DNA of 64,000 nucleotides, taken from positions 1 through 64,000 of the forward strand of contig NZ_JAGLCD010000016.1 of assembly GCF_023146395.1 (NCBI RefSeq). The letters are read 5' to 3'. Below are positions 28,658 to 46,457 of the stretch, piece after piece; position 1 is the first letter of the stretch, and each line of letters starts with the position of its first letter. Below the pieces are notes generated by a model that was not told where the DNA came from, did no database searches, and worked only from the letters and a program-made list of their open reading frames with translations. The DNA comes from Aeromicrobium sp. (GTDB taxonomy: Bacteria > Actinomycetota > Actinomycetes > Propionibacteriales > Nocardioidaceae). The translations under genes and the position numbers were made by a program.

Positions 28658-30280
28658 TCAGGAGGTGGCGCGGTCGTGGCCCTCCCAGTGGGGGCGACGC
28701 AGCTCGCGCTTGAGGATCTTGCCGGAGGGGTTGCGCGGCAGGATCTCGACGACCTCGACCGACGTCGGGCACTTGTAGCGGGCGATGCGCTCGCGCGTGT
28801 GCTCGATGATCTCGGCCTCCGTCACGGTGTGGCCGGGGCGCGGCACCACGACCGCGTGCGGCGTCTCGCCCCACTTCGGCGACGGGATGCCGATGACCGC
28901 GACCTCCAGGACGCCGGGGTGCGACATGATCGCGTTCTCGACCTCGGCCGGGTAGACGTTCTCACCGCCCGACGTCAGCAGGTCCTTGATCCGGTCACGC
29001 AGGTAGACGAAGCCCTCGGCATCGACGTACGCCGCGTCGCCGGTGCGGAACCAGCCGTCGGCGTCGAGCGACTCGGCGGTGGCCTCCTCGTTGCGCCAGT
29101 AGCCCGGCGTGACGCACCCGGCGCGGACGACGACCTCGCCGGTCTCTCCCGGCGCGCACCGGGCGCCGGTCTCGGTGTCGCGGATCTCGAGCTCGACGCC
29201 GTCGACCGGCCGGCCGGCCGACCGCAGGAGCCCGCTCGTGGCCGAGGTGTGGCACTCGGGCCCGAGGATCGTGGCCACCCCGATCGTCTCGGTCAGGCCG
29301 TAGGTCTGGGCGAGCCTGGCCCCGAAGACCTCCTGGGCGCGGACCATGACCGACTCCGAGATGGGGGAGCCGCCGTACACGAGCCACTCGACGCAGGAGA
29401 AGTCGACGGCGGAGACCTCGGGGCTCGAGACGAACGCCTGGATCACGGTCGGGACCATGACGACGTGGGTCGTCTGGTGCTCGACCATGTGGGAGACCAT
29501 CTTCTGCGGCGCGACCTCCGTGAACTGCACGATCCGGCCTCCGGCGGCGATCGCGATGAGCGACCACCCTCCGGCGGCGATGTGGTAGTACGGCGTCGGC
29601 ACGAGGCTGACGGAGGCGGGCGACACGTCGAAGTTGGCGCCGAAGCGCTCGACGGCCCAGAGGAATCCGGCCACGGTCGTCATGACGCCCTTGGGCCGTC
29701 CGGTCGTGCCCGAGGAGTACATGATGAACGCGAGGTCGTCGCCCGTCGCGTCGCGGCGGGGGTCCTCCTCCGCCGCGGCGCCGGCGACGAAGTCCTCGAA
29801 CGCGGCCCACGCGGCCGGGACCTCGAGCGGCTCGGAGCCCTGGGTGAAGGCCAGCAGCGGTCCGTCGACCACGGCCGTGGCCGCCTCCGTGACGTTCTCG
29901 AGCAGCACGTCCTCGACCAGGAGCGCGCGCGGGGCGACGTCGGAGACGATGAACTCGACCTCGGCCGGCGCGAGCCGGAAGTTGATCGGCACGATCACGA
30001 GCCCGGCGCGCGAGGCCGCGAAGAACAGCTCCCAGTACTCCGAGGCGTTGCGGGCCAGCATCGCGACGCGGTCGCCCGGCTCGAGCCCGGCCGCCACGAG
30101 CCCTGCGGCGATCCGGCTCGACCGCGCGTCGAGCTCGCCGTGGGTCAGGCTGCGGCCGTCGCCGACCACCACGGGGGCGTCAGGACGGTGCGCCGCCGTC
30201 GTGCGCAGCAGGTCGGCCACGCTCGCGGCGCCGCGGACGGTGGCGAGGAAGTCCAGGTCGAGGCCCTCGGTGGTGCCCAT
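28658..30280 (-). CDS. Acyl-CoA synthetase (class I adenylate-forming), ligase 1
   Basis: The 540-residue enzyme activates a carboxylic acid through an acyl-AMP. It carries the P-loop-like FIMYSSGTTGRPKGVMTT (A3), QTYGLTETIG (A5), YLRDRIKDLLTSGGENVYPAEVE (hinge and A8, cited in parts) and LPRNPSGKILKREL (A10 Lys). The C-terminal tail RPHWEGHDRATS closely matches the tail of the HxlR fusion protein at 41455-42747. It is last in a minus-strand operon after an SDR and another ligase, downstream of the motif pair at 32754-32804. The acid substrate is unknown. Confidence 0.92.
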   Translation of the reverse strand: MGTTEGLDLDFLATVRGAASVADLLRTTAAHRPDAPVVVGDGRSLTHGELDARSSRIAAGLVAAGLEPGDRVAMLARNASEYWELFFAASRAGLVIVPINFRLAPAEVEFIVSDVAPRALLVEDVLLENVTEAATAVVDGPLLAFTQGSEPLEVPAAWAAFEDFVAGAAAEEDPRRDATGDDLAFIMYSSGTTGRPKGVMTTVAGFLWAVERFGANFDVSPASVSLVPTPYYHIAAGGWSLIAIAAGGRIVQFTEVAPQKMVSHMVEHQTTHVVMVPTVIQAFVSSPEVSAVDFSCVEWLVYGGSPISESVMVRAQEVFGARLAQTYGLTETIGVATILGPECHTSATSGLLRSAGRPVDGVELEIRDTETGARCAPGETGEVVVRAGCVTPGYWRNEEATAESLDADGWFRTGDAAYVDAEGFVYLRDRIKDLLTSGGENVYPAEVENAIMSHPGVLEVAVIGIPSPKWGETPHAVVVPRPGHTVTEAEIIEHTRERIARYKCPTSVEVVEILPRNPSGKILKRELRRPHWEGHDRATS

Positions 30281-30311
30281 GGTCGTGTCCGTTCGATCGG
30301 GAGCAGTCGGC

Positions 30312-31945
<1,634 letters not shown>

Positions 31946-31949
<4 letters not shown>

Positions 31950-32692: not shown

Positions 32693-32753
32693 GCTCGCTC
32701 CTCGCACGCTGATCACCGGCACCTTTCGCTCGACGGCGCAGAGTGCTTGGCTT

Positions 32754-32804
32754 ATCACTCTGCTTGATGTAGTAATCTCTATCACACTGCTTGCTGAAGT
32801 GTCA
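32754..32804. promoter_or_regulatory. Two tandem regulon motifs in the divergent SDR/ligase promoter
   Basis: ATCACTCTGCTTGATGTAGT starts at 32754 and ATCACACTGCTTGCTGAAGT at 32781, 27 bp apart. Both match a motif found upstream of four other transcription units in this region (39838, 46631, 52545, 54357, 54433). A possible plus-strand promoter TTGGCT-N17-TAGTAA overlaps the first copy. The gap separates the minus-strand SDR operon from the plus-strand ligase operon, so one regulator could control both. Confidence 0.65.
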
Positions 32805-32836
32805 CGAGCTGATCACGACGGAAGGACGAGCGAACG

Positions 32837-34552
32837 ATGGCGATCTCCCGAGGACTGCACGCGCCCGACAAGGTGGCGGACTACCAGGCGCGGGGCTGGT
32901 GGTCCGACGAGACCGTCGACCAGCTCCTCGACCGTCAGGTCGCCGACCGACCCGACGAGCTCGCGGTCGTCGATCCGGCCAACCGGGCCGACCTGATGGG
33001 ATCGGCGCCGCGCCGCCTCACCTGGCGAGAGCTCGACGCCGAGGTCGTGGCGCTGGCCGCCCGCCTCGACGACCTCGGCCTGCAGCGCGGTCACGTGCTC
33101 GGGGTCCAGCTCCCCAACGCGATCGAGCTCGTCGAGGTGTACCTCGCGGCCTGGTCGCTCGGCATCGTCGTCTCGCCGCTGCCGATGCAGTACCGCCAGC
33201 GCGAGATCCTCGGCATGGCGAACCAGGCCGAGTTCGCCGCCTTCGTCACGAGCGCGACGTTCGGCGGGCGCAGCCCCGTGCTGGACGTGCTCGACGTCCG
33301 CGAGCAGATCCCGAGCCTGCGCACCGTCGCGGTGTTCGGCGACCCGGCCGAGCTCGAGGACGTCCCGGGCACCGTCGTGGCCTGGGCCCCGGCGGTGGCC
33401 ACGGACGCCGAGCGCGCGCAGGTGGCGAGCCGTCGCGCAGACGACCCCAACGACGCCAACGACTGCCTGACGATCTGCTGGACCTCGGGCACCGAGAGCG
33501 AGCCGAAGGGCGTGCCGCGCGCCCACCTGGAGTGGCTCGCGATCTGCCGCGCCACGGTCGAGGCTCCGCGGGTCGTGGCCGAGGACGTGCTGCTCAACCC
33601 CTTCCCGATGGTCAACATGGCCGGCATCAACGGCATGTTCCTGCCGTGGCTGCGGACCGGCTGCGTGCTCGTGCAGCACCACCCGTTCGACCTGCCGACG
33701 TTCCTGCAGCAGATCGCGGTCGAGCGCGTGACCTACACCGTCGCCCCGCCGGCGCTGCTGTGGATGCTGCTGCACAACGAGGAATTGCTGGCTCGAGCCG
33801 ACCTCTCGAGCCTGACGCGGCTCGGGTCCGGCTCGGTGCCGCTCCAGCCGGCGATGGTCCGGGGCTGGCAGGAGAAGTTCGGGATCGGCGTCATCAACTT
33901 CTTCGGGTCCAACGAGGGCATCGGCCTGCTGTCGAGCGTGGAGGACTTCCCCGACCCGGACGACCGCGCCCAGTACTTCCCCCGGTACGGGGCCCCCGGC
34001 ATCACGTGGTCGTCGAGCCTGTCCGATCAGGTCGGGGTGACTCTGGTCGACCCGGCCACCGACGAGGAGATCACCGAACCCGGCGTGCCGGGCGAGCTGC
34101 GCCTGAGCGGTCCGACGGTGTTCGCGGGATACCTCAACCCCGAGGGTCGGGCGAATCCGTTCGACGAGCAGGGTCGGCTGCGCACGGGCGACATCTTCGA
34201 GATCGCGGGTGACCGGGACCAGTTCCTGCACTACCTCGACCGGGCCAAGGACCTCGTGATCCGGGGCGGTATGAACATCGCGCCCGCCGAGCTCGAGGGC
34301 CTGATCGGCGACCACCCGGACGTCGTCGACGTCGCCGTGATCGGCGATCCGGACGACGTGCTCGGCGAGCGCGTCGCCGCGGTCGTGACCTTGCGCCCCG
34401 GCGCCACGATGACCCTGGAGGAGCTCGTCGCCTTCCTGCGCGGGAAGCAGATCGCCTCCTACAAGCTGCCCGAGCGGCTCGCGGTGATGGGCGAGCTGCC
34501 GCGCAACCCGGTGGGCAAGATCCTCAAGCGCGAGCTGCGGCAGGGAGCGTGA
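32837..34552 (+). CDS. Acyl-CoA synthetase, ligase 3 (cyclohexanecarboxylate-CoA ligase-like)
   Basis: This 571-residue class I adenylating enzyme has ICWTSGTESEPKGVPRAH (A3, with TSGTES instead of SGTTG), INFFGSNEGIG (A5), YLDRAKDLVIRGGMNIAP (hinge) and LPRNPVGKILKREL (A10 Lys). TSGTE-type A3 sequences are seen in cyclohexanecarboxylate- and related alicyclic acid-CoA ligases. The ATG follows GGAAGGACGAGCG. It is first in a plus-strand operon with another ligase and an NMO-like protein. Confidence 0.9.
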   Translation: MAISRGLHAPDKVADYQARGWWSDETVDQLLDRQVADRPDELAVVDPANRADLMGSAPRRLTWRELDAEVVALAARLDDLGLQRGHVLGVQLPNAIELVEVYLAAWSLGIVVSPLPMQYRQREILGMANQAEFAAFVTSATFGGRSPVLDVLDVREQIPSLRTVAVFGDPAELEDVPGTVVAWAPAVATDAERAQVASRRADDPNDANDCLTICWTSGTESEPKGVPRAHLEWLAICRATVEAPRVVAEDVLLNPFPMVNMAGINGMFLPWLRTGCVLVQHHPFDLPTFLQQIAVERVTYTVAPPALLWMLLHNEELLARADLSSLTRLGSGSVPLQPAMVRGWQEKFGIGVINFFGSNEGIGLLSSVEDFPDPDDRAQYFPRYGAPGITWSSSLSDQVGVTLVDPATDEEITEPGVPGELRLSGPTVFAGYLNPEGRANPFDEQGRLRTGDIFEIAGDRDQFLHYLDRAKDLVIRGGMNIAPAELEGLIGDHPDVVDVAVIGDPDDVLGERVAAVVTLRPGATMTLEELVAFLRGKQIASYKLPERLAVMGELPRNPVGKILKRELRQGA

Positions 34553-36117
34553 CCGTGACGGCCGAGCCGACCTGGGCCACCCCGGTCGCGGACGCGATGG
34601 CCCGAGCGGGGCATCGCGTGGCCTTCCGGACGCCGGACGCCACCCGGACGCACGCCGAGTCGCTCGCCCGGGCCTCCCGACTCGCGCACGCGCTCGCTGG
34701 CCAGGGCATCGGTCCGGGCGACCGGGTCGCCCTCGTGGTCGACGCGGAGGCCGACGCCGTCGAGTCCTATCTCGCGGTCGGCCTGACGGGGGCCACCGCG
34801 GTGCAGGTCAACGACCGGCTGCAGGGCCCGGAGATCGCCGAGGTGCTCGACCTTGCTGCGCCACGCGCCGTGATCCACACCGCCGCGCACGCCGAGCGCC
34901 TCGCGCCGCTGCTGGCCGGCAGTGGCGTGCTCGTCGTGGGGCACGGCGCCGCGGGCCGGCTCGACCTCGACGCCTCCGCCGCGATGGCCTCCTCCGGCAC
35001 CGCCAGGCCTCCGCGGGTCCTCGTGCCGGCGGGCACTCCGGGGATCGTGGGCTTCACGAGCGGCACGACCGGACGTCCGAAGGGGGTCGTGCACACCCAC
35101 GCGAACCTGGCCCGGATCGTGCGGCACATGCCGGCCCACGACGGCCTGCGCTGGGGCAGTCGCTGCGGCTTCACCGGCACCCTGGCGTTCGCGGCCGGCA
35201 TCTGGGGCGTCGTGCTGCCGCACCTCTACGTGGGCGGCGAGATCTCCTGGATGGCCGGGCTCGCGCCCGATGCCTGGGTCGACCGCATGATCGCCGAGCG
35301 CACGACCTTCACCTATGCGCCGACCCCGCTGATGGGCGCGTTCGCCGATGCCGTGCGGCGTCGACCCGAGGTGCTCGACCACCTCGACGGGGTGCTGCAC
35401 TCCGGCTCGCTCGCGCCGCGGGAGGCCACGGTCGACCTCGTCGACGCGATCGGCCACCGCTACGTCGAGACGTACGGCATGACCGAGACGGGAGCGCCGG
35501 TCACGGCCACCGTGCCGGCCGACTGGCGACCGGGCGCCGAGGCCGACGATCCGTTCTCCTCCGCGGGACGGGCCACCTCGATCGCGCGGGTGCTGGTGCT
35601 GGACGAGCACGGGGCCGAGCTCCCCGCCGGTGAGGTCGGTGAGGTGGTCGTGGAGAGCGAGACGCTGTTCGCCGGCTACCTCGACGACCCGGTCCAGACG
35701 GCCGAGGCGCTGCGCGACGCGGGCTCGGGCAGGCCGCGTCTGCACACCGGCGACCTCGGGAGCCTCGACGCGGCCGGTCACCTGTACGTCAGGGGGCGGG
35801 CCAAGGACATGATCGTGACGGGTGGCATGAACGTGTACCCCGCGGAGGTCGAGCGGGTCATCGCCCGGGCCGAGGGCGTCGCCGACGTCGCGGTGCTGGG
35901 CGTGCCCGACGAGCGCTGGGGCGAGACCGTCGTGGCGGCCGTGGTGCCGACCCCGGGCGCGTCGCTCGACCTGACCGCGCTCGAGGCCTTCGTGCGTGGG
36001 CAGCTCGCCGGCTACAAGAAGCCCACGCGCGTGCGGGTCGTCGACGAGCTGCCCCGCAACGCGAGCCTGAAGGTGCGCAAGGACGTCCTGCGCCGAGAGT
36101 TCGAGGAGACCCCGTGA
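34549..36117 (+). CDS. Acyl-CoA synthetase, ligase 4
   Basis: The 522-residue enzyme has GIVGFTSGTTGRPKGVVHTH (A3), ETYGMTETGAP (A5), YVRGRAKDMIVTGGMNVYP (hinge) and LPRNASLKVRKDVLRREF. The A10 region reads ASLKVRK where most ligases have PxGKxxK, so the catalytic Lys is probably still present in the form SLK. The GTG start overlaps the previous stop (GTGA). This is the most compact of the four ligases in the island. Confidence 0.9.
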   Translation: MTVTAEPTWATPVADAMARAGHRVAFRTPDATRTHAESLARASRLAHALAGQGIGPGDRVALVVDAEADAVESYLAVGLTGATAVQVNDRLQGPEIAEVLDLAAPRAVIHTAAHAERLAPLLAGSGVLVVGHGAAGRLDLDASAAMASSGTARPPRVLVPAGTPGIVGFTSGTTGRPKGVVHTHANLARIVRHMPAHDGLRWGSRCGFTGTLAFAAGIWGVVLPHLYVGGEISWMAGLAPDAWVDRMIAERTTFTYAPTPLMGAFADAVRRRPEVLDHLDGVLHSGSLAPREATVDLVDAIGHRYVETYGMTETGAPVTATVPADWRPGAEADDPFSSAGRATSIARVLVLDEHGAELPAGEVGEVVVESETLFAGYLDDPVQTAEALRDAGSGRPRLHTGDLGSLDAAGHLYVRGRAKDMIVTGGMNVYPAEVERVIARAEGVADVAVLGVPDERWGETVVAAVVPTPGASLDLTALEAFVRGQLAGYKKPTRVRVVDELPRNASLKVRKDVLRREFEETP

Positions 36118-37052
36118 CCCAGACCCTGACGAACCGGCCGGCCTGGATCGACACCCTCACGGTGCCCGTCGTCGCCGCACCCATGTTCCTGGTGTCCGGG
36201 CCCGATCTCGTGATCGCCACGAGTCGGGCGGGGGCGGTGGGCACCTTCCCGGCGCCGAACTGCCGCACGCCCGAGGAGCTGGACGCGTGGATGGGCACGA
36301 TCGGCGACGCACTGGTCGACGAGCCCTGGGCCCTGAATCTCGTGACGCACCGCACCAACGCGCGCCTGGAGGACGACCTGCGCCTCGTGGCCGAGCACCG
36401 ACCGCCGGTCGTCATCACGGCGCTCGGCTCGCCCCGACCCGTGATCGAGACGGTGCACGCCTATGGCGGCCTGGTGATCGCCGACGTCGTGACGCTGGGG
36501 CTGGCGCGCAAGGCCATCGCGGCCGGCGTCGACGGTCTCGCGTGCGTCTCGGCGGGGGCCGGCGGGCACACGGGCTTCCTCTCGCCCTTCGCGTTCGTGT
36601 CGGCCGTGCGTCGCGAGTTCGACGGACTCGTGACGATCGGCGGCGGCATCAGCGACGGGTTCGGGGTGGCCGGCGCGATCGCCGCGGGTGCCGACCTGGT
36701 GTACATGGGCACGAGCTTCCTCGCGACCCGCGAGAGCATGGCCGTGCCGGAGTACAAGCAGATGGTCGTCGACCACGAGGTCGACGACCTCGTGGTGAGC
36801 GACGGCATCACCGGCACCGCGGCGTCGTGGCTGCGTCCGAGCCTGGTGGCGAACGGGCTCGACCCCGACGCGCTGGTCGGGCCGGCCGAGCGCGTCTACG
36901 ACGCGACGCAGTCGCCCGCGAAGCGGTGGAAGGACGTGTGGGCCGCGGGTCAGGGGATCGGCGCGGTCACGGCGGTCGAGCCCGCTGCGGACGTCGTGGC
37001 CCGGCTCGCCGAGGAGTACCGCCAGGCGCTGGAGCGGATGCGCACCCGCTGA
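36114..37052 (+). CDS. Nitronate monooxygenase / 2-nitropropane dioxygenase-like flavoprotein
   Basis: The 312-residue TIM-barrel FMN protein contains VPVVAAPMFLVSGPDLV at the N terminus, CVSAGAGGHTGF (the AGGHxG site with the family His) and GADLVYMGTSFLAT (phosphate loop). The family includes nitronate monooxygenases and enoyl reductases. Its place at the end of an acyl-CoA ligase operon (GTGA overlap with the ligase) makes an enoyl-CoA or enone reductase role as likely as nitronate oxidation (inference). Confidence 0.85.
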   Translation: MTQTLTNRPAWIDTLTVPVVAAPMFLVSGPDLVIATSRAGAVGTFPAPNCRTPEELDAWMGTIGDALVDEPWALNLVTHRTNARLEDDLRLVAEHRPPVVITALGSPRPVIETVHAYGGLVIADVVTLGLARKAIAAGVDGLACVSAGAGGHTGFLSPFAFVSAVRREFDGLVTIGGGISDGFGVAGAIAAGADLVYMGTSFLATRESMAVPEYKQMVVDHEVDDLVVSDGITGTAASWLRPSLVANGLDPDALVGPAERVYDATQSPAKRWKDVWAAGQGIGAVTAVEPAADVVARLAEEYRQALERMRTR

Positions 37053-37057
37053 CCCCG

Positions 37058-37082
37058 CCGCCCCGCCCACCCGGCGGGGCGG
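37058..37082. terminator. Bidirectional hairpin terminator
   Basis: CCGCCCCGCC (37058-37067) and GGCGGGGCGG (37073-37082) form a perfect 10-bp stem with a 5-base loop. It lies between the convergent NMO-like and tesB genes. Confidence 0.75.
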
Positions 37083-37094
37083 GCGCGCGGTGAG

Positions 37095-37979
37095 TCAGGT
37101 CAAGGGGCGGATGAGGGCCTCCTGGGTGATGCGGCACGCCTGGGCGCCGTCCGCGCCGAACACCGCGGCGTCGATCAGCGCGCGCGAGTCGTGCGCCGCC
37201 GACGTGGCGTGCTCGAAGAGCAGCCACTCATCGGCGCGGACGTCACGGTGGAACCACATGGTGTGGTCGAGCGAGACGGCCCACCAGGTGCGCCCGAGCG
37301 TCGTCTCCGCGCCGGTCGTGTGACCGTGCGGGGTCACGGCGGTCGACATCAGCATGAGGTCGCTCGCGTAGGCCACCGCCGCGCGGTGCAGGAGCGGGTC
37401 GTCGCCGAGCGGATCGACGGCCCGCATCCAGATGTTCTGCGGTGGCGCCGCGCCTGGCGCGACGGCGTCACGGTCTGCGCCGGGCGCCGGCTCGGGCTCG
37501 ACCCGGATCTCGATCGCGCGGAAGTCGTCCCAGAACCGGCCCAGGCCGCCGTCGGGCTCGGCCAGGACCCGCAGGTCGACCGCGGCCTCGGGACCGAGGG
37601 CGCGCGGCGTCGGGCGGGAGTGGCTCAGCCCGGAGTCGATCCTGGTGCAGGAGACGACCGTGCGGCACAGCAGCCGGTCGTCCTGCCACGCGCTGACCTC
37701 GCGGGTCGAGACGCTGCGGCCGTCGCGCAGACGTTCCACGCGGAACGACACCGGCTCCCCCGAGCGCCCGCCCCGCAGGAAGGTCGTGTGCAGCGAGTGC
37801 GGCAGGCATCCCTCCGGCACGGACCGACCGGCCGCCATGAGCGACTGGCCCACGAGCTGGCCCCCGAACAGCTGGGGGAGCGCCAGCACGTCGACCGCAC
37901 CGACCCAGAGGTCGTCGTCTCGCTGCTCGACGTGGAGGACCTGCGACAGGTCGGCCTGCGCCGGGCCTGCGGTCGTCAC
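37095..37979 (-). CDS. tesB: Acyl-CoA thioesterase II
   Basis: The 294-residue double-hotdog protein matches TesB: VLALPQLFGGQLVGQSLMAA near the N terminus, LHTTFLRGG in the first hotdog, and DHTMWFHRD plus DEWLLFEHATSAAHDSRAL in the second, with the catalytic Asp in LDHTMWF and the Ser/Gln region in the C-terminal motif. It hydrolyses acyl-CoA to free acid and CoA. The GTG at 37979 overlaps the DUF1295 stop by 4 bp. It may release CoA when pathway intermediates accumulate. Confidence 0.93.
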   Translation of the reverse strand: MTTAGPAQADLSQVLHVEQRDDDLWVGAVDVLALPQLFGGQLVGQSLMAAGRSVPEGCLPHSLHTTFLRGGRSGEPVSFRVERLRDGRSVSTREVSAWQDDRLLCRTVVSCTRIDSGLSHSRPTPRALGPEAAVDLRVLAEPDGGLGRFWDDFRAIEIRVEPEPAPGADRDAVAPGAAPPQNIWMRAVDPLGDDPLLHRAAVAYASDLMLMSTAVTPHGHTTGAETTLGRTWWAVSLDHTMWFHRDVRADEWLLFEHATSAAHDSRALIDAAVFGADGAQACRITQEALIRPLT

Positions 37980-38812
37980 CGGTCCGAGGTCGCGCGAGGC
38001 GTGCGGCGCGGCGGCATCGGGAAGAAGCCGCTCGTCGTGGCGATGTAGTGCTCGTACGCCTCGCCGCGCTTGCGCCGCATGCCCTTCTCGAGCAGCTTCT
38101 TGCCGCTGTACGAGACCAGGAGCTTGGTCATGACGATGGGCGCGATGATCGTGACGAGACCACCCCAGTGGCCCAGGGCCAGCAGGAACAGCCCGACCCA
38201 CACGCACGAGTCGCCGAAGTAGTTGGGGTGACGGGTCCAGGCCCACAGGCCCCGGTCCATGATGCGCCCCTCGTTGGCCGGGTCGGCCTTGAACCGGGCC
38301 AGCTGCCAGTCACCGACGGCCTCGAACGTGAAGCCGATGGCCCACACCGCGATGCCGAGCCAGCCCAGCACGCCCAGCGGCGCGTCCTGGTACATCGCGA
38401 ACTGCACGGGCAGTGAGACGACGACGATCAGGAGTCCCTGCAGGCCGTAGATCTGCTTGACGAGGAACACCACGAGGCTGCCGCCCTGGCGCGACGCGAG
38501 CAGGCGGGTGTAGCGCGGGTCCTGGCCGTGGCCGAGATTGCGCCGACCGATGTAGAGCCCGAGGCGCAGGCCCCAGACCGCGGTGAGGGCGAGCACGACG
38601 AGACGCCGGGCGTCGTCGCCGTCGGCGCCCATCGACGCGAGGTACGAGACCACGGCGACGACGACGAAGCCCGGTCCCCAGCAGATGTCGATGATGGAGT
38701 GGTTCGAGATGGCGGAGGCGATCGCCATGACGACGCCGATGAAGACGACGACGGCGGCGATGCTGATCACCAGGTTGAGGGCGAGGTCGCCCCAGGGGAA
38801 CGCGGAGTTCAT
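37976..38812 (-). CDS. DUF1295 membrane protein (steroid 5-alpha-reductase superfamily)
   Basis: The 278-residue protein has about six or seven membrane helices and the C-terminal family signature GLWAWTRHPNYFGDSCVWVG followed by GKKLLEKGMRRKRGEAYEHY. DUF1295 proteins belong to the steroid 5-alpha-reductase/isoprenylcysteine methyltransferase fold, and the RHPNYFG site binds the NADPH or cosubstrate. In this operon (SDR-DUF1295-TesB) a double-bond reductase role on a lipid or terpenoid is an inference. Confidence 0.88.
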   Translation of the reverse strand: MNSAFPWGDLALNLVISIAAVVVFIGVVMAIASAISNHSIIDICWGPGFVVVAVVSYLASMGADGDDARRLVVLALTAVWGLRLGLYIGRRNLGHGQDPRYTRLLASRQGGSLVVFLVKQIYGLQGLLIVVVSLPVQFAMYQDAPLGVLGWLGIAVWAIGFTFEAVGDWQLARFKADPANEGRIMDRGLWAWTRHPNYFGDSCVWVGLFLLALGHWGGLVTIIAPIVMTKLLVSYSGKKLLEKGMRRKRGEAYEHYIATTSGFFPMPPRRTPRATSDR

Positions 38813-38864
38813 GGATCGGTCCTTCGGGATCGGTCGAGATGGTGCAGGGTCGAGGTGAGGGGCG

Positions 38865-39770
38865 TCAGGCGAGGTCGGCGAGAAGGCTCTGGAAGGCCTC
38901 CTGGGCGCTGCTGTAGGTGTGCGGCTCTCCCTCGCGGCTCCGGTCGAGCAGGTCCTCGAGGTCGCGCGGGTCCAGGCGCCCCGGGGGGTGTGCGACCGTG
39001 GCGTGCTCGACGACGTCAACGGCTCGGACGGCGGACCCTGCGGCCACGACGACCTGGCCGTTCAGGACGCAGGCCGGATCGGCCAGAGCGCCGATGACGG
39101 GCGCGACCAGCTCGGGGCGCAGGTGCTCGGCCTGCTCCGGCGCGATGCCGTCGGTGGTCATCTGGGTCAGGGCGTAGGGGAGCAGCACGTTCGTCAGCAC
39201 GCCCTTGGGTGCCCCTTCGAAGGCGGCGGTGCGCGCGAGCGCGATGACCGCACCCTTGCTCGCCGCGTACGCCGCGGCCGCGAGCTCGCCGTGCAGGCCT
39301 GCGCCAGAGGCGACGACGATGATGCGGCCGTGCCCGGCCGGACGCATGGCGGCTGACGCGGCAGCCACGACCAGCGCGGTGCCGGTGACGTTGACGTCCA
39401 TGACGTGGCGGAACGTCTCCGGGGAGGACTTGTGCAGCATCTCCAACGGGTTGATCGCCGCGCTCGTGACGCAGATGTCGAGCCGCCCGAAGTGGCGCGT
39501 CGCGTCCTCGACGAGGCTCGCGGCGGTCGCGGGGTCGGCGACGTCGCCGTGATGGGCGACGGCGCGGCCTCCGGCGGCCTGGATCTCGGCCACGACGTGA
39601 TCGGCCGGACCGAGGCCGTTCTCGTCGACCTGCCGGTTGCGGTTGTTGACGACGACCGCCGCGCCGAGCTCGGCGAGATGGAGCGAGAAGGCGCGGCCGA
39701 GGCCCTTGCCACCTCCGGTGACGATCGCGACCTGCCCGGCGAGGGGCTGGTCGGGCTGGGCTTCGGACAT
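38865..39770 (-). CDS. SDR, (3R)-hydroxyacyl-CoA dehydrogenase-like (MFE-2 N-domain type)
   Basis: This 301-residue SDR has AIVTGGGKGLGRAFSLHLAE (TGxxxGxG), then VVNNRNRQVDENGLGPADHV with the inserted loop typical of the (3R)-hydroxyacyl-CoA dehydrogenase part of multifunctional enzyme 2. Catalytic residues are in IIVVASGAGLHG (Ser) and AYAASKGAV (Tyr, Lys). A C-terminal extension of about 60 residues lacks a hydratase or SCP2 domain. The ATG at 39770 follows AGAGGTG. It is first in a minus-strand operon diverging from the carotenoid-oxygenase operon. Confidence 0.87.
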   Translation of the reverse strand: MSEAQPDQPLAGQVAIVTGGGKGLGRAFSLHLAELGAAVVVNNRNRQVDENGLGPADHVVAEIQAAGGRAVAHHGDVADPATAASLVEDATRHFGRLDICVTSAAINPLEMLHKSSPETFRHVMDVNVTGTALVVAAASAAMRPAGHGRIIVVASGAGLHGELAAAAYAASKGAVIALARTAAFEGAPKGVLTNVLLPYALTQMTTDGIAPEQAEHLRPELVAPVIGALADPACVLNGQVVVAAGSAVRAVDVVEHATVAHPPGRLDPRDLEDLLDRSREGEPHTYSSAQEAFQSLLADLA

Positions 39771-39837
39771 GCGACACCTCTGGCGTTTCGGGGTCCGGGC
39801 GTTGCCTGGGGCAACTTTTCTGGCCTCGGACGGTGGA

Positions 39838-39861
39838 GTTACTCTGATAGTAGTAGTACGG
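39838..39861. promoter_or_regulatory. Regulon motif in the SDR / carotenoid oxygenase divergent gap
   Basis: GTTACTCTGATAGTAGTAGT starts at 39838. It matches the shared motif and contains TACT-N5-AGTA and TACT-N8-AGTA symmetries. It lies 68 bp before the minus-strand SDR ATG and about 60 bp before the oxygenase ATG, so it can serve both operons. Confidence 0.6.
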
Positions 39862-39921
39862 TGTGACGCAGATGACAAGGCCCCGGCGGAGATCGGTGGG
39901 GCGAGACGAAGGGGAACTTCC

Positions 39922-41439
39922 ATGGATGTCGAGCTCGTCGGACGCCTCCTGTCCACGCTGCCGGAGGACGACGACCACCCGTACCGCACGGGTCCGTGGC
40001 AGCCGCAGACGAACGAGTGGAAGGCCGACGGCCTCGAGGTCGTCGAGGGCGAGATCCCGACCGATCTGGACGGGGTCTACCTGCGCAACACCGAGAACCC
40101 GGTGCATCCGTCGCTGAAGAACTACCACCCCTTCGACGGCGACGGGATGATCCACGTCGTCGGCTTCCGCGATGGTGAGGCGTTCTACCGCAACCGCTTC
40201 ATCCGCACCGACGGGCTGCTGGCCGAGCAGGAGCACGGCGGGCCGCTGTGGGCCGGGCTGGCCGAGGCGCCGCAGTGGGCCCTGCGCGAGGACGGGTGGG
40301 GCTCGCGCACCCGGATGAAGGACGCCTCCAGCACCGATGTCGTCGTGCACCGCGGTGTCGCGCTCAGCAGCTTCTACCAGTGCGGTGACCTGTACCGGAT
40401 CGATCCGTTCACGGCCGAGACGATGGGCAAGGAGAGCTGGAACGGGCACTTCCCCTTCGACTGGGGCGTGTCGGCCCATCCGAAGGTCGACGGCCGCACC
40501 GGCGAGATGCTGTTCTTCAACTACAGCAAGGAGGCGCCGTACATGAAGTACGGCGTCGTCGACGAGAACAACGACCTCGCGCACTACATCGACGTCCCGC
40601 TCCCGGGTCCGCGTCTGCCGCACGACATGGCTTACACCGAGAACTACGCGATCCTCAACGACTGTCCGCTGTTCTGGGACGAGGAGCTGCTCAAGCGCGA
40701 CGCTCACGTGGCACGGTTCCGTCCCGACCTCCCGACCCGTTTCGCGGTCATCCCGCGTCGCGGCCAGACCTCCGACATCCGCTGGTTCGAGGCCGAGTCG
40801 ACCTACGTGCTGCACTTCGTCAACGCCTACGAGGACGGGGACGAGATCGTCCTGGACGGCTTCTTCCAGGGCGACCCGGAGCCGGCCGACAACGGCATGG
40901 GCGACAAGTGGCAGCGCGCGTTCCGCTTCCTCGCACTGGATCGCATGCAGTCACGCCTGCACCGCTGGCGCCTCAACCTCGTGACCGGTCAGGTCAAGGA
41001 GGAGCAGCTCAGCGAGTCGATCACCGAGTTCGGGATGATGAACGGCGACTACACCGGCGAGAAGTACCGCTACGCCTACGCCGCGACGGGCAAGCCCGCC
41101 TGGTTCCTGTTCGACGGTCTGACCAAGCACGACCTGCACACCGGCACCGAGGAGCACTACAGCTTCGGCGACAACGTCTACGGCAGCGAGACCGCGATGG
41201 CACCGCGCGTCGGATCGACCGCGGAGGACGACGGATACCTCGTGACCTTGACGACCGACATGAACCAGGACGCCTCCTTCGCCGTGGTGTTCGACGCGGC
41301 GCGCGTCAGTGACGGGCCGGTCTGCAAGCTCAAGCTCCCCGAGCGGATCTCCTCCGGCACGCACTCGACGTGGGCGCCAGGGGCCGAGCTGCGTCGCTGG
41401 CAGACCGCCGACTCCGCGGCGTCTGCCGTCGGGCTCTAG
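39922..41439 (+). CDS. Carotenoid oxygenase family (four-His Fe(II) alkene-cleaving dioxygenase)
   Basis: This is a 505-residue seven-bladed propeller enzyme of the family that includes apocarotenoid, lignostilbene and resveratrol cleavage dioxygenases. It begins with the family stretch IPTDLDGVYLRNTENPV and HPFDGDGMIHVV. All four iron-binding His residues are identifiable: H186 (SAHPKVD), H234 (LPHDMAYTE), H298 (VLHFVNAYED) and H481 (GTHSTWAPG). It cleaves a C=C bond with O2 to give carbonyl products. No signal peptide is seen. The ATG follows AAGGGGAA. It leads an operon with the HxlR fusion regulator, VOC and epoxide-hydrolase-like genes. Confidence 0.95.
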   Translation: MDVELVGRLLSTLPEDDDHPYRTGPWQPQTNEWKADGLEVVEGEIPTDLDGVYLRNTENPVHPSLKNYHPFDGDGMIHVVGFRDGEAFYRNRFIRTDGLLAEQEHGGPLWAGLAEAPQWALREDGWGSRTRMKDASSTDVVVHRGVALSSFYQCGDLYRIDPFTAETMGKESWNGHFPFDWGVSAHPKVDGRTGEMLFFNYSKEAPYMKYGVVDENNDLAHYIDVPLPGPRLPHDMAYTENYAILNDCPLFWDEELLKRDAHVARFRPDLPTRFAVIPRRGQTSDIRWFEAESTYVLHFVNAYEDGDEIVLDGFFQGDPEPADNGMGDKWQRAFRFLALDRMQSRLHRWRLNLVTGQVKEEQLSESITEFGMMNGDYTGEKYRYAYAATGKPAWFLFDGLTKHDLHTGTEEHYSFGDNVYGSETAMAPRVGSTAEDDGYLVTLTTDMNQDASFAVVFDAARVSDGPVCKLKLPERISSGTHSTWAPGAELRRWQTADSAASAVGL

Positions 41440-41454
41440 CCCGGCGGATCGGGG

Positions 41455-42747
41455 ATGGGCGACGACGTGGTGGCGCAGGGGGTTGATCCGGCTCGTGCGA
41501 CCCTGCTGGAGGCCGGCGGCACCAACGCGGTGGGCCGGATGCTGGGCCTGCTCGGTGACGAGTGGACCCTGCTGATCCTGCAGCACTCGATGTGGGGCCT
41601 GCGACGGTACGGGCAGTTCATGGCGGCGATCCCGATCTCGAACGCGGTGCTCACCTCCCGTCTGGCGCTGCTGACGCGTGAGGGGCTGTTCGACCGTCAG
41701 GTCTACCAGCACAACCCGCCGCGGGCGGAGTACCGCCCCACCGCACGGTCACGATCGCTGTGGACCGTGCTGCTCGCGATCTGGGACTGGGAACGCCAGT
41801 GGGTGCCCGAGCACGCGCAGCGGCTGCCCGTCATGCGGCACGCCGCGTGCGGTGCCGACTTCGCCCCGGTCGTCGGGTGCGCCGCGTGCGGCGAGGCCGT
41901 CGCGCTCCGCGACGTCGGGGCCGAGTGGGGCCCCAGTGGCAGCTGGGAGCGGTCGGTCCCGGCCGCGGCGACCCGCCGTCGGTCCGAGGTCGAGGGGGGC
42001 GGCGTCCAGTCGGGGATGTTCCCCGACACGATGGCGATCTTCGGCAACCGGTGGTCGTCGGCCCTGATCGGCGCCGCCTTCCGTGGGGTGAGCCGCTTCT
42101 CGGAGTTCGAGGCGAGCCTGGGCGCGCCACCGACCCTGATCGCCGACCGGCTGCGGGTCTTCCAGGCCATCGGCGTGCTGCAGCCGGTCGACAACCTCGG
42201 GCGCTCGGACTGGATGCAGTACCGGTTGACCGCCAAGGGGCGGGCGTTCTTCCCCGTCGTCCTGCTGACGCTGCAGTGGGCCGACCGCTGGTACCACGCT
42301 CCGGAGGGCCCGGCGCTCGCGATGACGCACCGGGCCTGCGGTGCCGCGCTCACGGCGGTCCTGCAGTGCGACCAGTGCGAGCGGCAGCTCGCGGGCGCCG
42401 ACGTCGTCGTGGCCGACGACCACCCCGATCCGCTCATGGCGGGCAGCGAGCACATCGACGCCGCGGCGATCGAGGACGTGCTGATGGAGCACCCCGACGT
42501 CCGCGAGGTCGCCGTGATCGGCGCGCCCGCGGATCCGGCGGGGGAGACGCCCGTCGCGTTCGTCGTCGGGGCGGACGGCCTCACGGTCGAGGCGCTGATG
42601 GAGTTCGTCGCCACACGCCTCCCACCCGCTCGGCGACCCACCGTCGTCGAGCTCATCGACTCCCTTCCCCGCACGTCCGTGGGGAAGGTCTTGAAGCGGG
42701 ACCTCCGCGCGCCCTACTGGGCCGGACACGACAGGAGCACGACATGA
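41455..42747 (+). CDS. Tandem HxlR regulator fused to an acyl-CoA synthetase C-terminal domain
   Basis: The 430-residue protein has five parts. HxlR winged helix 1 spans about residues 20-118. A zinc-ribbon-like H129/C132-X9-C142-X2-C145 follows. HxlR winged helix 2 spans about 188-285, with a second H292/C295-X9-C305-X2-C308. Last is an AMP-binding-enzyme C-terminal domain (about 329-425). That domain starts at the A8 loop (GSEHIDAAAIEDVLMEHPDV) and keeps the A10 site SVGKVLKRDL with K411. Its tail APYWAGHDRSTT resembles ligase 1 (RPHWEGHDRATS). The paralog at 43886-44830 ends before this domain. It starts 15 bp after the oxygenase and overlaps the VOC start by 4 bp. Confidence 0.9.
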   Translation: MGDDVVAQGVDPARATLLEAGGTNAVGRMLGLLGDEWTLLILQHSMWGLRRYGQFMAAIPISNAVLTSRLALLTREGLFDRQVYQHNPPRAEYRPTARSRSLWTVLLAIWDWERQWVPEHAQRLPVMRHAACGADFAPVVGCAACGEAVALRDVGAEWGPSGSWERSVPAAATRRRSEVEGGGVQSGMFPDTMAIFGNRWSSALIGAAFRGVSRFSEFEASLGAPPTLIADRLRVFQAIGVLQPVDNLGRSDWMQYRLTAKGRAFFPVVLLTLQWADRWYHAPEGPALAMTHRACGAALTAVLQCDQCERQLAGADVVVADDHPDPLMAGSEHIDAAAIEDVLMEHPDVREVAVIGAPADPAGETPVAFVVGADGLTVEALMEFVATRLPPARRPTVVELIDSLPRTSVGKVLKRDLRAPYWAGHDRSTT

Positions 42748-43445
42748 CCTGGGCCACGATTCGTCAGGTGGTGATCGGGGCCGAGGACCTCGACGCCACG
42801 AGCAAGGAGATCCGCGAGGGGCTCGGTCTGTCCAGCGGCTTCGCCGATCCGTTGCTGGAGGACATCGGCCTGGCCGACGAGACGATCCGCGTGGGTGGTG
42901 AGGCGCACCTCGAGGTCGTCGCCCCGCTGAACACGACGGCGTCGATCAACGGCTGGCTCGCGAAGGTGGGCGGCGGGGGCGGGTACGCGCTGTCGATCCA
43001 GGTGCCGGACGCCGCGACGTTGGTGGCCAACGCCGAGTCCGCCGGCGTCCGTGTCGTGGCCGATCTCGAGGCGTACGGCCGCCGGATCGTGCAGCTGCAC
43101 CCCGGCGACATGGGCCTGCTGGTCGAGCTCGACGAGATCCCCGAGCCGGACCAGTGGTTCTGGGACGACATCGCCACCGAGACCCCGGAGAACCCCCTGG
43201 TCGACGACGTCCTCGCGGTCGACGTCGAGTCGCCGGACCCGCAGGCGCAGGCCGCGCGGTGGGCCGCGGTCATGGGCGTCGAGGTCGAGCCCGGCGAGGT
43301 GCCCTCGATCCGGGTCGGATCACGCACCGTGCACTTCGTGCGCGGCGCGCGTCGCATGCTGAGCGCGGTCGACCTGCGCACGGTCGCCGGCGCCGATGCC
43401 CCCGCCACCCTGTCGGTCAGCGGCGTCCTGCTGCGACTGCGATGA
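42744..43445 (+). CDS. VOC (glyoxalase-like) superfamily protein
   Basis: The 233-residue protein has two VOC modules. The first begins MTWATIRQVVIGAEDLDATSKEI and includes VGGEAHLEVVAP and RIVQLHPGDMGLLVELDEI. The second, weaker one begins DDVLAVDVESPDPQAQAARWA and ends at VHFVRGARRML. Such proteins can be metal-dependent dioxygenases, isomerases or ligand-binding proteins; the metal-binding positions cannot be assigned with confidence. The ATGA overlap with the upstream regulator gene indicates translational coupling. Confidence 0.8.
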   Translation: MTWATIRQVVIGAEDLDATSKEIREGLGLSSGFADPLLEDIGLADETIRVGGEAHLEVVAPLNTTASINGWLAKVGGGGGYALSIQVPDAATLVANAESAGVRVVADLEAYGRRIVQLHPGDMGLLVELDEIPEPDQWFWDDIATETPENPLVDDVLAVDVESPDPQAQAARWAAVMGVEVEPGEVPSIRVGSRTVHFVRGARRMLSAVDLRTVAGADAPATLSVSGVLLRLR

Positions 43446-43474
43446 CCCGGACCACCCGATCGAAGGAGAACGAG

Positions 43475-43855
43475 ATGACCGATGACGAGAAGATCGCCCT
43501 GACCCGCCAGATGCTCACGGCGTGGGACGAGCTGCGGTGGGACGACGTGGCGGCGATGTTCGCCGAGGACGGCGTGCTGCACAGCGTTATGAAGGACCCG
43601 GTGGTCGGGCGCGCGACGATCGACGAGCACCTGCGGCCCTTCCGGGAGAACGCCGCCAACGTCGACCTCCAGGTCAAGTCGATCGGCGTCATCGGCGGGC
43701 GGGTGTTCGTCGAGCGGGTCGACGTCTTCGACTACGCCGAGCACCACGGTGAGGTCCCGGTCGTCGGGATCTTGTCGTTCGAGGACGGCCTCGTGACCGA
43801 GTGGCTCGAGTACTACGACCGGGCCACGCTGCTCGCGGGCATGGGTGCGAGCTAG
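43475..43855 (+). CDS. Limonene-epoxide-hydrolase-like / SnoaL-fold protein
   Basis: The 126-residue cystatin-like alpha+beta barrel has the Arg-Asp...Asp pattern of limonene-1,2-epoxide hydrolase: R81 and D83 in FVERVDVFDYA, and D115 in EWLEYYDRA. The spacing is close to the R99/D101/D132 triad of the known enzyme. The Tyr and Asn that help hold water in that enzyme do not appear conserved (LHSVM segment). Epoxide hydrolysis is therefore possible but not certain. The ATG follows GAAGGAGA. It is last in the oxygenase operon. Confidence 0.78.
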   Translation: MTDDEKIALTRQMLTAWDELRWDDVAAMFAEDGVLHSVMKDPVVGRATIDEHLRPFRENAANVDLQVKSIGVIGGRVFVERVDVFDYAEHHGEVPVVGILSFEDGLVTEWLEYYDRATLLAGMGAS

Positions 43856-43885: not shown

Positions 43886-44830
43886 TCAGCCGAGGTGCTG
43901 GAGCAGGTCGCTGCCGCGCAGGACCTGGTGGCACTGGTCGCAGCGGAAGACGCCGGTGAACGCCGCGCCGCACGAGCGGTGCGTCCAGTCGAGCACGTCC
44001 CCCGCCGGCTCGTGGTACCAGTGCTCGGCCCAGCTCGCCGTGGCGCCGATGACGGGGAAGAAGTCCAGCCCCTTGGCCGTCAGCCGGTACTCCGACCAGT
44101 CGGGTCGGTCCGGCAGCACGACCTGGTGCAGGATCTCGTGCTCGCACAACGACGTGAGGCGCGCGGCGAGCAGGGTCGGGGGGACCTTGAGCTTGTCGTG
44201 GAAGTCGTTGAACCGGGTCAGGCCCATGAAGGCCGCCCCGACGATCGCCGACGACCAGCGATTGCCGAAGACCGCCATCGTGGCGGGGTAGAAGTACTCC
44301 TGCTGCCGCCGGCTGCCTGACCGGCGGCGGGTGTGGACCGCGGGCACAGAGCGTCGCCAGCCGCCCGCGGGTCCCCACGAGCTCGCGATGTCCTGGGCCG
44401 TCACGGGCTCGGCGCAGGCGCTGCAGCAGAAGTCGGGCGTGAACTCGCGACCGCACGCCGCGTGCAGCATCGACGGGGTCGTCGTGGTCGGCTCGGGGGT
44501 CCAGCGCCGTTCCCAGCGCCACAGCGCGGTCAGCACCGGCCAGAGTCCGCGGCCCTTGGCGGTCAGCAGATACTCCGATCGCACGGGGTTGCGCTGGTAG
44601 ACCTCGCGGCGCAGCACGTCCTCGGCGACGAGGGCGTCGAGCCGCGTCGTGAGGACGGCGTGCGAGATCGGCATGGCTGCGCCGAACTCGGCGTACCGGC
44701 GCGCTCCGTTGAGGGCCGCGCGCAGGATCAGCAGCGTCCACTCGTCGCCGATGATCCCGAACGCGAGACCCAGGGCGTTGGGTCCTGGGGCCTCCGGCGT
44801 CTGGTCGCTGCCGGTCCGCTCATCGGTCAC
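43886..44830 (-). CDS. Tandem HxlR-type transcriptional regulator with two zinc-ribbon-like motifs
   Basis: The 314-residue protein is a paralog of the fusion regulator at 41455-42747 without the synthetase domain. HxlR helix-turn-helix 1 (about 18-112) is followed by H123/C126-X9-C136-X2-C139, and HxlR 2 (about 178-275) by H284/C287-X9-C297-X2-C300. It then ends after GSDLLQHLG. HxlR proteins normally dimerise; a tandem chain can bind one palindrome as a monomer. The GTG at 44830 begins VTDERTGSDQ. It is convergent with the oxygenase operon and is a candidate regulator of the motif set. Confidence 0.88.
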   Translation of the reverse strand: MTDERTGSDQTPEAPGPNALGLAFGIIGDEWTLLILRAALNGARRYAEFGAAMPISHAVLTTRLDALVAEDVLRREVYQRNPVRSEYLLTAKGRGLWPVLTALWRWERRWTPEPTTTTPSMLHAACGREFTPDFCCSACAEPVTAQDIASSWGPAGGWRRSVPAVHTRRRSGSRRQQEYFYPATMAVFGNRWSSAIVGAAFMGLTRFNDFHDKLKVPPTLLAARLTSLCEHEILHQVVLPDRPDWSEYRLTAKGLDFFPVIGATASWAEHWYHEPAGDVLDWTHRSCGAAFTGVFRCDQCHQVLRGSDLLQHLG

Positions 44831-44897
44831 CCGGGCAGGATAGTCCGCCCGCGGGCGGAGGGCGGTCCGGCTGAGAGAGTCGCCGGGCGTGGTGGGG

Positions 44898-46457
44898 CTA
44901 CGACCAGACCCGCACGTAATCGATCTCCATCGTGGCGGGGAAGGCTGTCGCGCTCGACGGGAGGTTCCCCACCGTGCCGACACCCTGGGTCAGGGTCAGG
45001 GTGAACGGCTGATCGAAGGGGGCGCCGAGCGGCGTTCCTGCGACCTCCTCCCAGGTGTGTGTGAGGCACACCTGACCGTCGTACAGGATGGTGATGCCCG
45101 TCCTGGACCACTCGGCGGTGTACGCGTGGAACTGCGTCGGGTCGGCGATCATGCAGTGATGGTTGGTGCGGGCCGCGCCGTTCTCGGAGGGGCCGTAGTG
45201 CAGCATCGGGATGCCTCGATCAGGCCAGGACGAGAAGTACTCGACGATGTCGATCTCCCCCGAGTACGGGAAGGCGCCGTACGTCCCAGGATGCTGGGGA
45301 TAGAGCCAGAACGCGGAGTGGGTCCCGGGCGCCGTGACCGACGGCATCTTGGCCCGCATCTCGAAGCGCCCGTAGGTCTGACTGAACAGCGCCCAGGTCG
45401 AGACCGACCCCGCCGTGTGCTCGGACGGGTAGTCCCCGATCGGGCTCTGGCACGTCATGGGATCGACGGTGCGCGCGGTGAGCTTGAGCGTCCCCGAGCC
45501 GACCGCGATGTTCTCGGGGGAGTCGAGGTAGCAGTCGTTGCCGATGGAGTACCCGGACTGCGCCGTCTCCAGGGGCAGCCACTTCGACCGGTCCAGCGTC
45601 GTTCCGGTGAAGTCGTCGGCGAACGTGCAGGTCCACGGCGTGCCGTCCGGCTTGACGATCCTGACGCCGCACGGCCCTTCCGGGATCGGAGGCGGGGTCT
45701 CGGGCCGGGTGGTCTCAGGCTGGCTGGCTCGGCGGTAGAGGAAGGCGGCGATCTGCTCGCGCTGGGCGATGCCGGTGGGGCGGAAGGTGCCGTCGTCGTA
45801 GCCGGTGGTGATGCCGGTCGAGGCGAGCCAGACGATCTCGCGGTAGAAGTGCGCGGTGGTGGGGACGTCGGTGAAGGGTGAGGTCGAGGGCAGGGTGACC
45901 TCGGGTCGCCCGGCGAGGCGGTAGAAGAAGGCGGCGATCTGCTCGCGCCGTGCCAGGCCGGTGGGGCGGAAGGTGCCGTCGTCGTAGCCGGTGGTGATGC
46001 CGGTCGAGGCCAGCCACGCGATCTCCCAGGCGAACGGGTGCAGGAGGGGGGTGTCCTGGAAGGTGTACTGCGAGCCGGAGCCCAGCGTCGTCGCGCGGAC
46101 GGGGAGCGAGGCCCCTGACCATCCGGCGTCGTTCCAGGCCTGCACCGTGACGCCGTAGGTCACGTTGTCCGCCAGGCCCCTGAGGGTGGTCGACGTCAAG
46201 GTCGACCAGGCCGTGACGGGATCGCCCCCGGCGACGGGTGTCGCGGTCGTCCGGTAGGTCCGCGCGCCGTCGACGCCGGACCACGTGATCGTGAGTGTTC
46301 CCGGCGCCGGACCTGCCGTCCGGTCCAGACGCACCTCGTGCGGGACCGTCGCTGTCGTCGCCGCGCTCGGGCCCGTTGCCACGACGTCGACCACGAGCAG
46401 GCCCGCGGCCAGGCTCAGGGCCACGGCGTGGCCCACCATCTCCGTCAGCATGCGCAT
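44898..46457 (-). CDS. Secreted GH16 beta-glucanase with FN3 and two SLH repeats
   Basis: The 519-residue protein has an N-terminal signal segment (about 1-33), a fibronectin type III-like domain (about 40-125), two S-layer-homology repeats (about 130-185 and 193-245, each with GITTGYDDGTFRPTG), a Pro-rich linker and a GH16 catalytic domain (about 270-519). The catalytic motif GEIDIVEYFSS contains E401, D403 and E406. GH16 with this motif usually cuts beta-1,3- or mixed-linkage glucans such as laminarin. SLH repeats bind cell-wall polymers in other bacteria; two instead of three copies may give weak or dimer-dependent anchoring. Confidence 0.9.
   Translation of the reverse strand: MRMLTEMVGHAVALSLAAGLLVVDVVATGPSAATTATVPHEVRLDRTAGPAPGTLTITWSGVDGARTYRTTATPVAGGDPVTAWSTLTSTTLRGLADNVTYGVTVQAWNDAGWSGASLPVRATTLGSGSQYTFQDTPLLHPFAWEIAWLASTGITTGYDDGTFRPTGLARREQIAAFFYRLAGRPEVTLPSTSPFTDVPTTAHFYREIVWLASTGITTGYDDGTFRPTGIAQREQIAAFLYRRASQPETTRPETPPPIPEGPCGVRIVKPDGTPWTCTFADDFTGTTLDRSKWLPLETAQSGYSIGNDCYLDSPENIAVGSGTLKLTARTVDPMTCQSPIGDYPSEHTAGSVSTWALFSQTYGRFEMRAKMPSVTAPGTHSAFWLYPQHPGTYGAFPYSGEIDIVEYFSSWPDRGIPMLHYGPSENGAARTNHHCMIADPTQFHAYTAEWSRTGITILYDGQVCLTHTWEEVAGTPLGAPFDQPFTLTLTQGVGTVGNLPSSATAFPATMEIDYVRVWS
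45772..46010. repeat. 53-bp identical repeats inside the SLH coding region
   Basis: 45772-45824 and 45958-46010 are identical over 53 bases, encoding the TGYDDGTFRP core of the two SLH repeats. Identity at third codon positions as well indicates a recent internal duplication or gene conversion. Confidence 0.85.

Follow-up and report, generated by a model that had tools for sequence, protein, structure and literature searches.

FadD1 and DsfR are described as acyl-CoA ligases that act as transcriptional regulators, and in FadD1 the AMP-binding domain with a leucine zipper binds DNA while the C-terminal domain alone does not (PMC12754631). What, then, is to be thought of a transcription regulator that carries just the C-terminal domain of such a ligase? 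A protein of this kind is encoded at 41455..42747 on the forward strand of the window, as the whole analysed stretch of 64,000 nucleotides of Aeromicrobium sp. DNA is called here. Judged by titles and abstract openings, no fusion of HxlR and AMP-binding_C (AMP_C) domains was found in the literature. The reading that we consider probable is that the fusion arose by a deletion in place, and that its regulator part is working while its AMP_C part is a passenger, most likely without a ligand role.

The earlier note had described one frame of 430 residues with two HxlR winged helices, two HxxC-X9-CxxC motifs and an AMP_C domain but no adenylation domain, and the ORF check, the Pfam search and the motif search agree with it in each of these points. 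The ORF is single and intact, and a frameshift joining two genes is ruled out, since the regulator and AMP_C are contiguous in one open frame. The gene begins 15 nt 3′ of an RPE65/carotenoid-cleavage dioxygenase family gene (39922..41439, forward strand; Pfam RPE65, E 3.3e-126; 85-88% identity in 11 relatives), and its stop overlaps by ATGA the start of a VOC/glyoxalase-fold gene (42744..43445, forward strand; Pfam Glyoxalase_4; 77% identity to the VOC behind lig1 in genome G479); these two serve as operon anchors. The VOC gene is followed at 43475-43855 by a SnoaL/limonene-epoxide-hydrolase-like gene of 126 aa. Pfam HxlR (PF01638) matches the fusion protein in two stretches (E 1.6e-30; 105.2 bits against a gathering score of 20.8). 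The first winged helix takes residues 32-119 (41548..41811) and the second, whose limits come from predicted secondary structure, about residues 190-279 (42022..42291). Each is followed by an HxxC-X9-CxxC motif, at residues 129-145 (41839..41889) and 292-308 (42328..42378); both motifs are present in 27 of the 28 regulators examined, counting the fusion and its paralog in the window. These motifs are likely to bind metal, the first being a probable metal ribbon. The regulator-derived part as a whole, about residues 1-322 (41455..42420), is 57-69% identical to stand-alone regulators of 11 relatives and is delimited by the aligned tails. That it binds operator DNA and regulates nearby genes is only suggested by its kept position behind RPE65. 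A paralogous double-HxlR regulator without AMP_C, already noticed before, lies at 43886..44983 on the reverse strand, as recognised by Pfam, motifs and similarity; it is 53% identical to the fusion over residues 19-318, and its start codon is uncertain. Regulators of this paralogous type are conserved in several relatives, sometimes beside a ligase-VOC pair (L097/L098).

The C-terminal part belongs to the ligases. Pfam AMP-binding_C (PF13193) gives a single match at residues 339-411 (E 1.2e-17), with 65.0 bits against 24.5, which covers model positions 2-76 of 76; the AMP_C homology that had been claimed is therefore present. Among the best 25 of 77 matched NCBIfam families, 24 are models of ligases or other adenylating enzymes lying within residues 314-428, and the remaining one is a regulator model at residues 27-115. 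PF00501, the AMP-binding N-terminal domain of ANL acyl-CoA ligases, has no match in the 430 residues. Thus the view that this is not an ordinary ligase holds, and the fusion cannot be a ligase at all, as AMP_C alone cannot make acyl-AMP or thioesters. Alignment also confirms that K411 (codon 42685..42687), the lysine of a 'GK' motif which we take to be the A10 lysine, is kept. The domain had been called complete from the A8 loop onwards. This is right in that the whole Pfam model is matched, but too generous at the beginning: the recognisable ligase piece starts at about residue 324, just past the hinge that we take to be A8, so that it has neither the Arg nor the Lys of A8, and the GG-loop region has replacements at G331, N333, Y335 and P336.

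Where did such a piece come from? The window genes were mapped onto 23 related loci, and in 14 of them (L045-L050, L091-L096, L069, L070) a regulator without AMP_C, a complete ligase and a VOC gene follow each other on one strand. RPE65, 85-88% identical, is directly upstream in ten of these, the others being L049, L050, L095 and L096. An ATGA shared by the end of the regulator gene and the beginning of the ligase gene is found in 12 of the 14. The order in the window is RPE65, regulator joined to AMP_C, and VOC, as if the ligase had shrunk to its C-terminal domain. Stand-alone regulators with a ligase behind them are 57-65% identical to the fusion, and that of G479, a genome of another family, about 68-69%. 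G479 itself has the order RPE65 - regulator - reductase-like gene - ligase - VOC (L110), found among seven further loci and making a 15th. The absence of the intact order from nine of the 23 loci and from six of the seven further ones counts against an origin in place. The nine include L072 and L073, where RPE65 and the regulator are followed by other genes, L071 with RPE65 and regulator only, L051 and L052 with a lone regulator of about 50% identity, and L097 and L098 with ligase and VOC beside the other, paralogous type of regulator; the last two, L099 and L100, are two contigs of the sister genome G030. Among the seven further loci, five have RPE65 and the regulator with no ligase in the part retrieved, and L113 has its regulator and RPE65 on opposite strands. 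On balance, comparison of gene order and sequence with the relatives shows the fusion to have originated in place.

The junction lies at about residues 318-326 (42406..42432), an approximate breakpoint taken from alignments and codons. Here the regulator is shortened by about its last ten residues, and of the ligase all that comes before the A8 hinge is gone; the missing DNA amounts to about 1.26 kb if the order of L069 is taken as ancestral, and to about 2.4 kb with that of G479. The remnant (residues 324-430; 42424..42744) would then be what is left of the ligase once behind the regulator, as Pfam, synteny, alignment, tree, similarity and the 3′ end suggest. The last of these deserves attention. 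Within the conserved 3′ end of the fusion (42715..42747), 25 nt at 42715-42739 are identical to the end of lig1 in G479, with AGGAG at 42733-42737 inside them, and are followed by five variable nt and then the ATGA overlap with VOC. This AGGAG is likely the ribosome-binding site of the VOC gene. The same overlap of ligase and VOC by ATGA is found in all 17 in-place or VOC-linked ligases examined. The longest identical run in the fused domain is 29 nt, which was equalled in 122 of 20000 codon shuffles.

That adjacent genes become fused through an in-frame deletion is nothing unusual. The ancestral operon would have consisted of the RPE65 dioxygenase, the double-HxlR regulator, the acyl-CoA ligase (lig1) and VOC, and one in-frame deletion probably ran from just before the regulator stop to about the A8 hinge of the ligase. 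It would have removed about 1.3 kb, or, with a reductase-like gene separating regulator and lig1 as in G479, about 2.4 kb. Since the frame was kept through the deletion, the regulator now ends in a ligase C-terminal domain that still overlaps VOC by ATGA. Loss of the ligase in place may have been tolerable because a complete lig1 is present elsewhere in the island.

The earlier note had looked to this complete copy, ligase 1 (28658..30280, reverse strand, with AMP-binding and AMP-binding_C), as the source, and proposed that the domain was recently captured from it. That the domain stems from a ligase of the pathway stands; recombination from ligase 1, a paralog or relocated copy, is hardly credible. 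It is true that, within its own genome, the AMP_C part matches ligase 1 best (48% over residues 317-429). In protein identity, however, the fused domain reaches 55% to the ligases of G479, of two Humibacillus and of G174, and 46% to ligase 1 and its G030 ortholog, so that ligase 1 ties for the lowest value among 19 lig1-type ligases. DNA identity ranks it last among the same 19 (0.608, against 0.627 for the G030 ortholog and a maximum of 0.696). The likeness of the tails, on which capture had partly been based, is real, with eight of the last 13 residues shared with ligase 1, but the two Humibacillus ligases share 11 of 13 and the same tail type occurs in other phyla; four in-place ligases (L049, L050, L095, L096) share six. 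The tail APYWAGHDR is common to ligases of Actinobacteria, Alphaproteobacteria and Acidovorax/Xenophilus (15 loci, L069 and L070 included; L074-L090), and as L074-L090 were fetched by a scan using the tail pattern itself, the 15 loci are not a measure of spread. What argues strongly against capture is that the end of ligase 1 has neither AGGAG nor ATGA, which are common to the fusion and the in-place ligases, and synteny accounts for the domain without any capture. Capture from ligase 1 was thus judged very unlikely on the gene order, on the ranking by similarity and on its lack of a ribosome-binding site for VOC, and these same three lines, with the shared 3′ end carrying that site, indicate that the domain is a leftover of a ligase standing in place behind the regulator.

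The tree that had been proposed for the C-terminal domain answers half of the question. A clade of 16 lig1 rows, ligase 1 included, takes in the fused domain with support of 99/100, but the great length of its branch, 3.91 where the median is 0.054, keeps it from being placed further inside the clade or relative to ligase 1. In AU tests, holding the fusion with ligase 1 and the G030 ortholog costs 2.0 log units (p 0.0525), so that capture is not firmly excluded by this test, and grouping it with the in-place ligases while ligase 1 stays outside costs 11.8 (p 0.064). Both results are borderline, and the tree alone does not decide the source.

The long branch reflects how much the domain has changed. 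Its identity to G479 is 55%, while the ligase domain of G479 itself averages 85% to ten other in-place ligases. The neighbours behave otherwise: when identity of the window to G479 is set against the mean of G479 to other relatives, the figures are 85% and 86% for RPE65, 69% and 66% for the regulator, and 77% and 59% for VOC. Among 74 sites that are invariant in 11 in-place ligases, 28 are altered in the fused domain, presumably including the hinge region and CoA/ATP contacts; the A8 Arg and Lys, G331S, N333H, Y335D, P336A, W362A and K393R are among the residues lost. K411 is one of the 46 kept.

Rates of change were compared in a branch model with one set of branch lengths for the whole operon and a scale for each gene, the window branch being set against the background. 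Omega was 0.285 against 0.050 for the AMP_C domain (p 5e-18), 0.047 against 0.035 for RPE65 (p 0.06) and 0.089 against 0.068 for the regulator (p 0.05), and lower than background for VOC (0.043 against 0.088, p 2e-4). When branch lengths are free for each gene, the domain gives 0.098 against 0.055, a difference that is not significant (p 0.3); saturation of synonymous changes is the cause, and the model stretches the branch to 7.7, where the other genes have 2.7-5.0. Although chosen after the free-branch result had been seen, the shared-branch fit is preferred, since genes of one operon should have the same branch times; in view of the free-branch result, the size of the omega effect is model-dependent. 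Omega = 1 was rejected for the whole window branch of the domain, a branch that includes the time before the deletion, and by our own arithmetic 0.285 is about the value expected if the last quarter of the branch were neutral after constrained evolution.

Is anything still kept in this domain? Six hundred neutral simulations matched for identity were used as controls. The fused domain has a profile score of 91.6 bits against 80.5 ± 7.9, which 38 of the 600 reach. It keeps 46 invariant sites against 47.9 ± 1.9 (534 of 600 reach this number), slightly fewer polar or Gly/Pro ones (27 against 30.4 ± 2.3), and 33 of 38 always-hydrophobic columns against 31.4 ± 2.2 (196 of 600). The visible indel relative to the ligases is in frame and the frame is open over 107 codons, but about 22% of the neutral simulations are free of stops, so that an open frame is no proof of selection. 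AlphaFold2 predicts residues 341-420 to be folded (block means of pLDDT 77-93) and residues 322-333 to be a low-confidence linker (pLDDT below 50). The best solved matches of Foldseek are acyl-CoA ligases, several of them over about 85-95 columns at 1.5-2.3 Å; the matched range is not given there, and it is the column count that equals the size of a C-terminal domain. The balance of this evidence from sequences and models points to strongly relaxed constraint on the AMP_C domain. It is not clearly decaying, given the open frame, the in-frame indel, the score above the neutral mean, the rejection of omega = 1 and the predicted fold.

Several readings divide this evidence among them. The remnant may have been co-opted, docking on the N-domain of an intact ligase or binding acyl-CoA or acyl-AMP and so coupling regulation to substrate activation. 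The breakpoints lie near domain borders, with nearly all of both the regulator and the C-terminal domain kept and a flexible linker between them; K411 and the open frame are kept, the profile score exceeds 562 of the 600 simulations and the fold is predicted with good confidence; four complete ligases are found in the same island; and regulators among ligases are known from FadD1 and DsfR (PMC12754631). Nevertheless we regard co-option as unlikely, though worth keeping in mind, with residues presumed to handle CoA/ATP and hinge motion among those lost, invariant sites kept no oftener than in neutral simulations and polar or Gly/Pro ones slightly less, and the fusion limited to one genome among those searched. 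Somewhat less probable still is a newborn sensor, that is, a domain freed from catalysis whose fast change with kept lysine and fold would be adaptation to dock ligases or bind acyl-CoA or acyl-AMP; the relaxed constraint argues against ligand sensing by the C-terminal domain. Sensing of acyl-AMP or acyl-CoA, docking and acylation of the lysine, which had been suggested earlier, find no positive support here, and the rate at which the domain has changed is far above that of the related ligases. It might instead be a structural tail without any ligand, kept folded for solubility, stability or oligomerisation of the regulator. To this we give about the same small weight as to co-option: a score above most neutral simulations, the predicted fold and an omega below 1 would suit it, but hydrophobic columns are kept no better than by neutral change, and the omega value is that of a neutral last quarter of the branch. 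We therefore return to the deletion in place with a passenger domain. The regulator part has kept its conserved domains and evolves at close to the usual rate; it is expected to bind DNA and, as the unfused regulators would, to control the dioxygenase operon. The AMP_C part would be a folded or partly folded passenger, catalytically dead and in early decay, whose frame and 3′ end perhaps persist because they carry the VOC ribosome-binding site and translational coupling.

Does the same fusion exist elsewhere, as might have been hoped? It was not found in the genomes and plasmids searched, other than the window genome G000. Overlapping draws of 58 relatives and of 294 family, 394 class, 391 order and 396 phylum genomes gave no second regulator/AMP_C fusion, at E ≤ 1e-60 for the last four and at E ≤ 0.001, among the matches listed, for the relatives; with these E-value limits a fusion on a distant HxlR protein would have gone unseen. 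No open-frame match reached the AMP_C part outside G000 in the family, class, order and phylum draws at E ≤ 1e-60. The matches that end past residue 334, in G122 (to 337) and G566 (to 359), both run across a TGA stop codon, and the same is true of the match in G479 among the seven further loci, which extends to residue 359. A contig search gave 22 loci, five with regulators and 17 with only the AMP_C part, none with both, and among 1166 matched plasmid records none covered 80% of the query.

The mapped genes of the sister genome G030 show 89-96% identity in protein, but its contig C37 (4482 bases) ends inside RPE65 and its contig C196 starts inside the paralogous regulator (L099, L100, L118); a search for VOC gave no close match there. 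With this assembly gap exactly at the fusion site, the sister genome offers no second copy. Could the fusion itself be an artefact, a draft that lost 1.3 kb or merged two strains? The source genome is a draft of 21 contigs, 83% complete and probably a metagenome bin, no second genome with the fusion was found, and the sister draft breaks at the same place. We hold this to be very improbable, for the domain is unlike each of the intact lig1-type ligases over its entire length (protein identity no higher than 55% in those compared), and its replaced catalytic residues and faster rate are not expected of a fresh assembly deletion in an intact gene; moreover the frame is kept, and direct repeats in 41200-43600 are short and imperfect. 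As for the island (28658-43855), it is rearranged relative to the relatives with the lig2, SDR and lig3 neighbourhood kept, and ligase 1 adjoins lig2 in opposite relative orientation, about 8 kb from the RPE65-fusion-VOC block. The nearest relative of the regulator (68%), VOC (77%), lig2 (82%) and SDR (82%) is found in G479, a genome of the same class but a different family, and this suggests that the island was transferred horizontally.

The AMP_C piece most likely is a relic rather than a new sensor. The value of the case is that the states before and after are both visible in relatives, giving a new domain architecture from one operon deletion, and a 'regulator with ligase domain' that comes out of a domain search can have arisen incidentally, through the loss of a gene, and need not be a sensor. 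If the domain were functional after all, a metabolic regulator could gain a substrate-linked input in a single step. Among known proteins, the stand-alone double-HxlR regulators of the same genus, of Humibacillus, Terrabacter and others have the same two HxxC-X9-CxxC motifs and many stand behind RPE65; unlike the fusion, they end at about residues 320-335 and none was seen with AMP_C. The lig1-type ligases, with AMP-binding and AMP-binding_C, are those of which the fused piece appears to be a relic, by its clade (99/100), shared 3′ end and VOC overlap, but the fusion has neither their adenylation domain nor their hinge, and it carries other residues at A8 and in parts of the surface that binds CoA. 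With FadD1 and DsfR the fusion shares the tie of ligase domains to transcription control (PMC12754631); DNA binding by the fusion would lie in its HxlR domains, and it has no AMP-binding domain in which a leucine zipper of the FadD1 kind could be sought.
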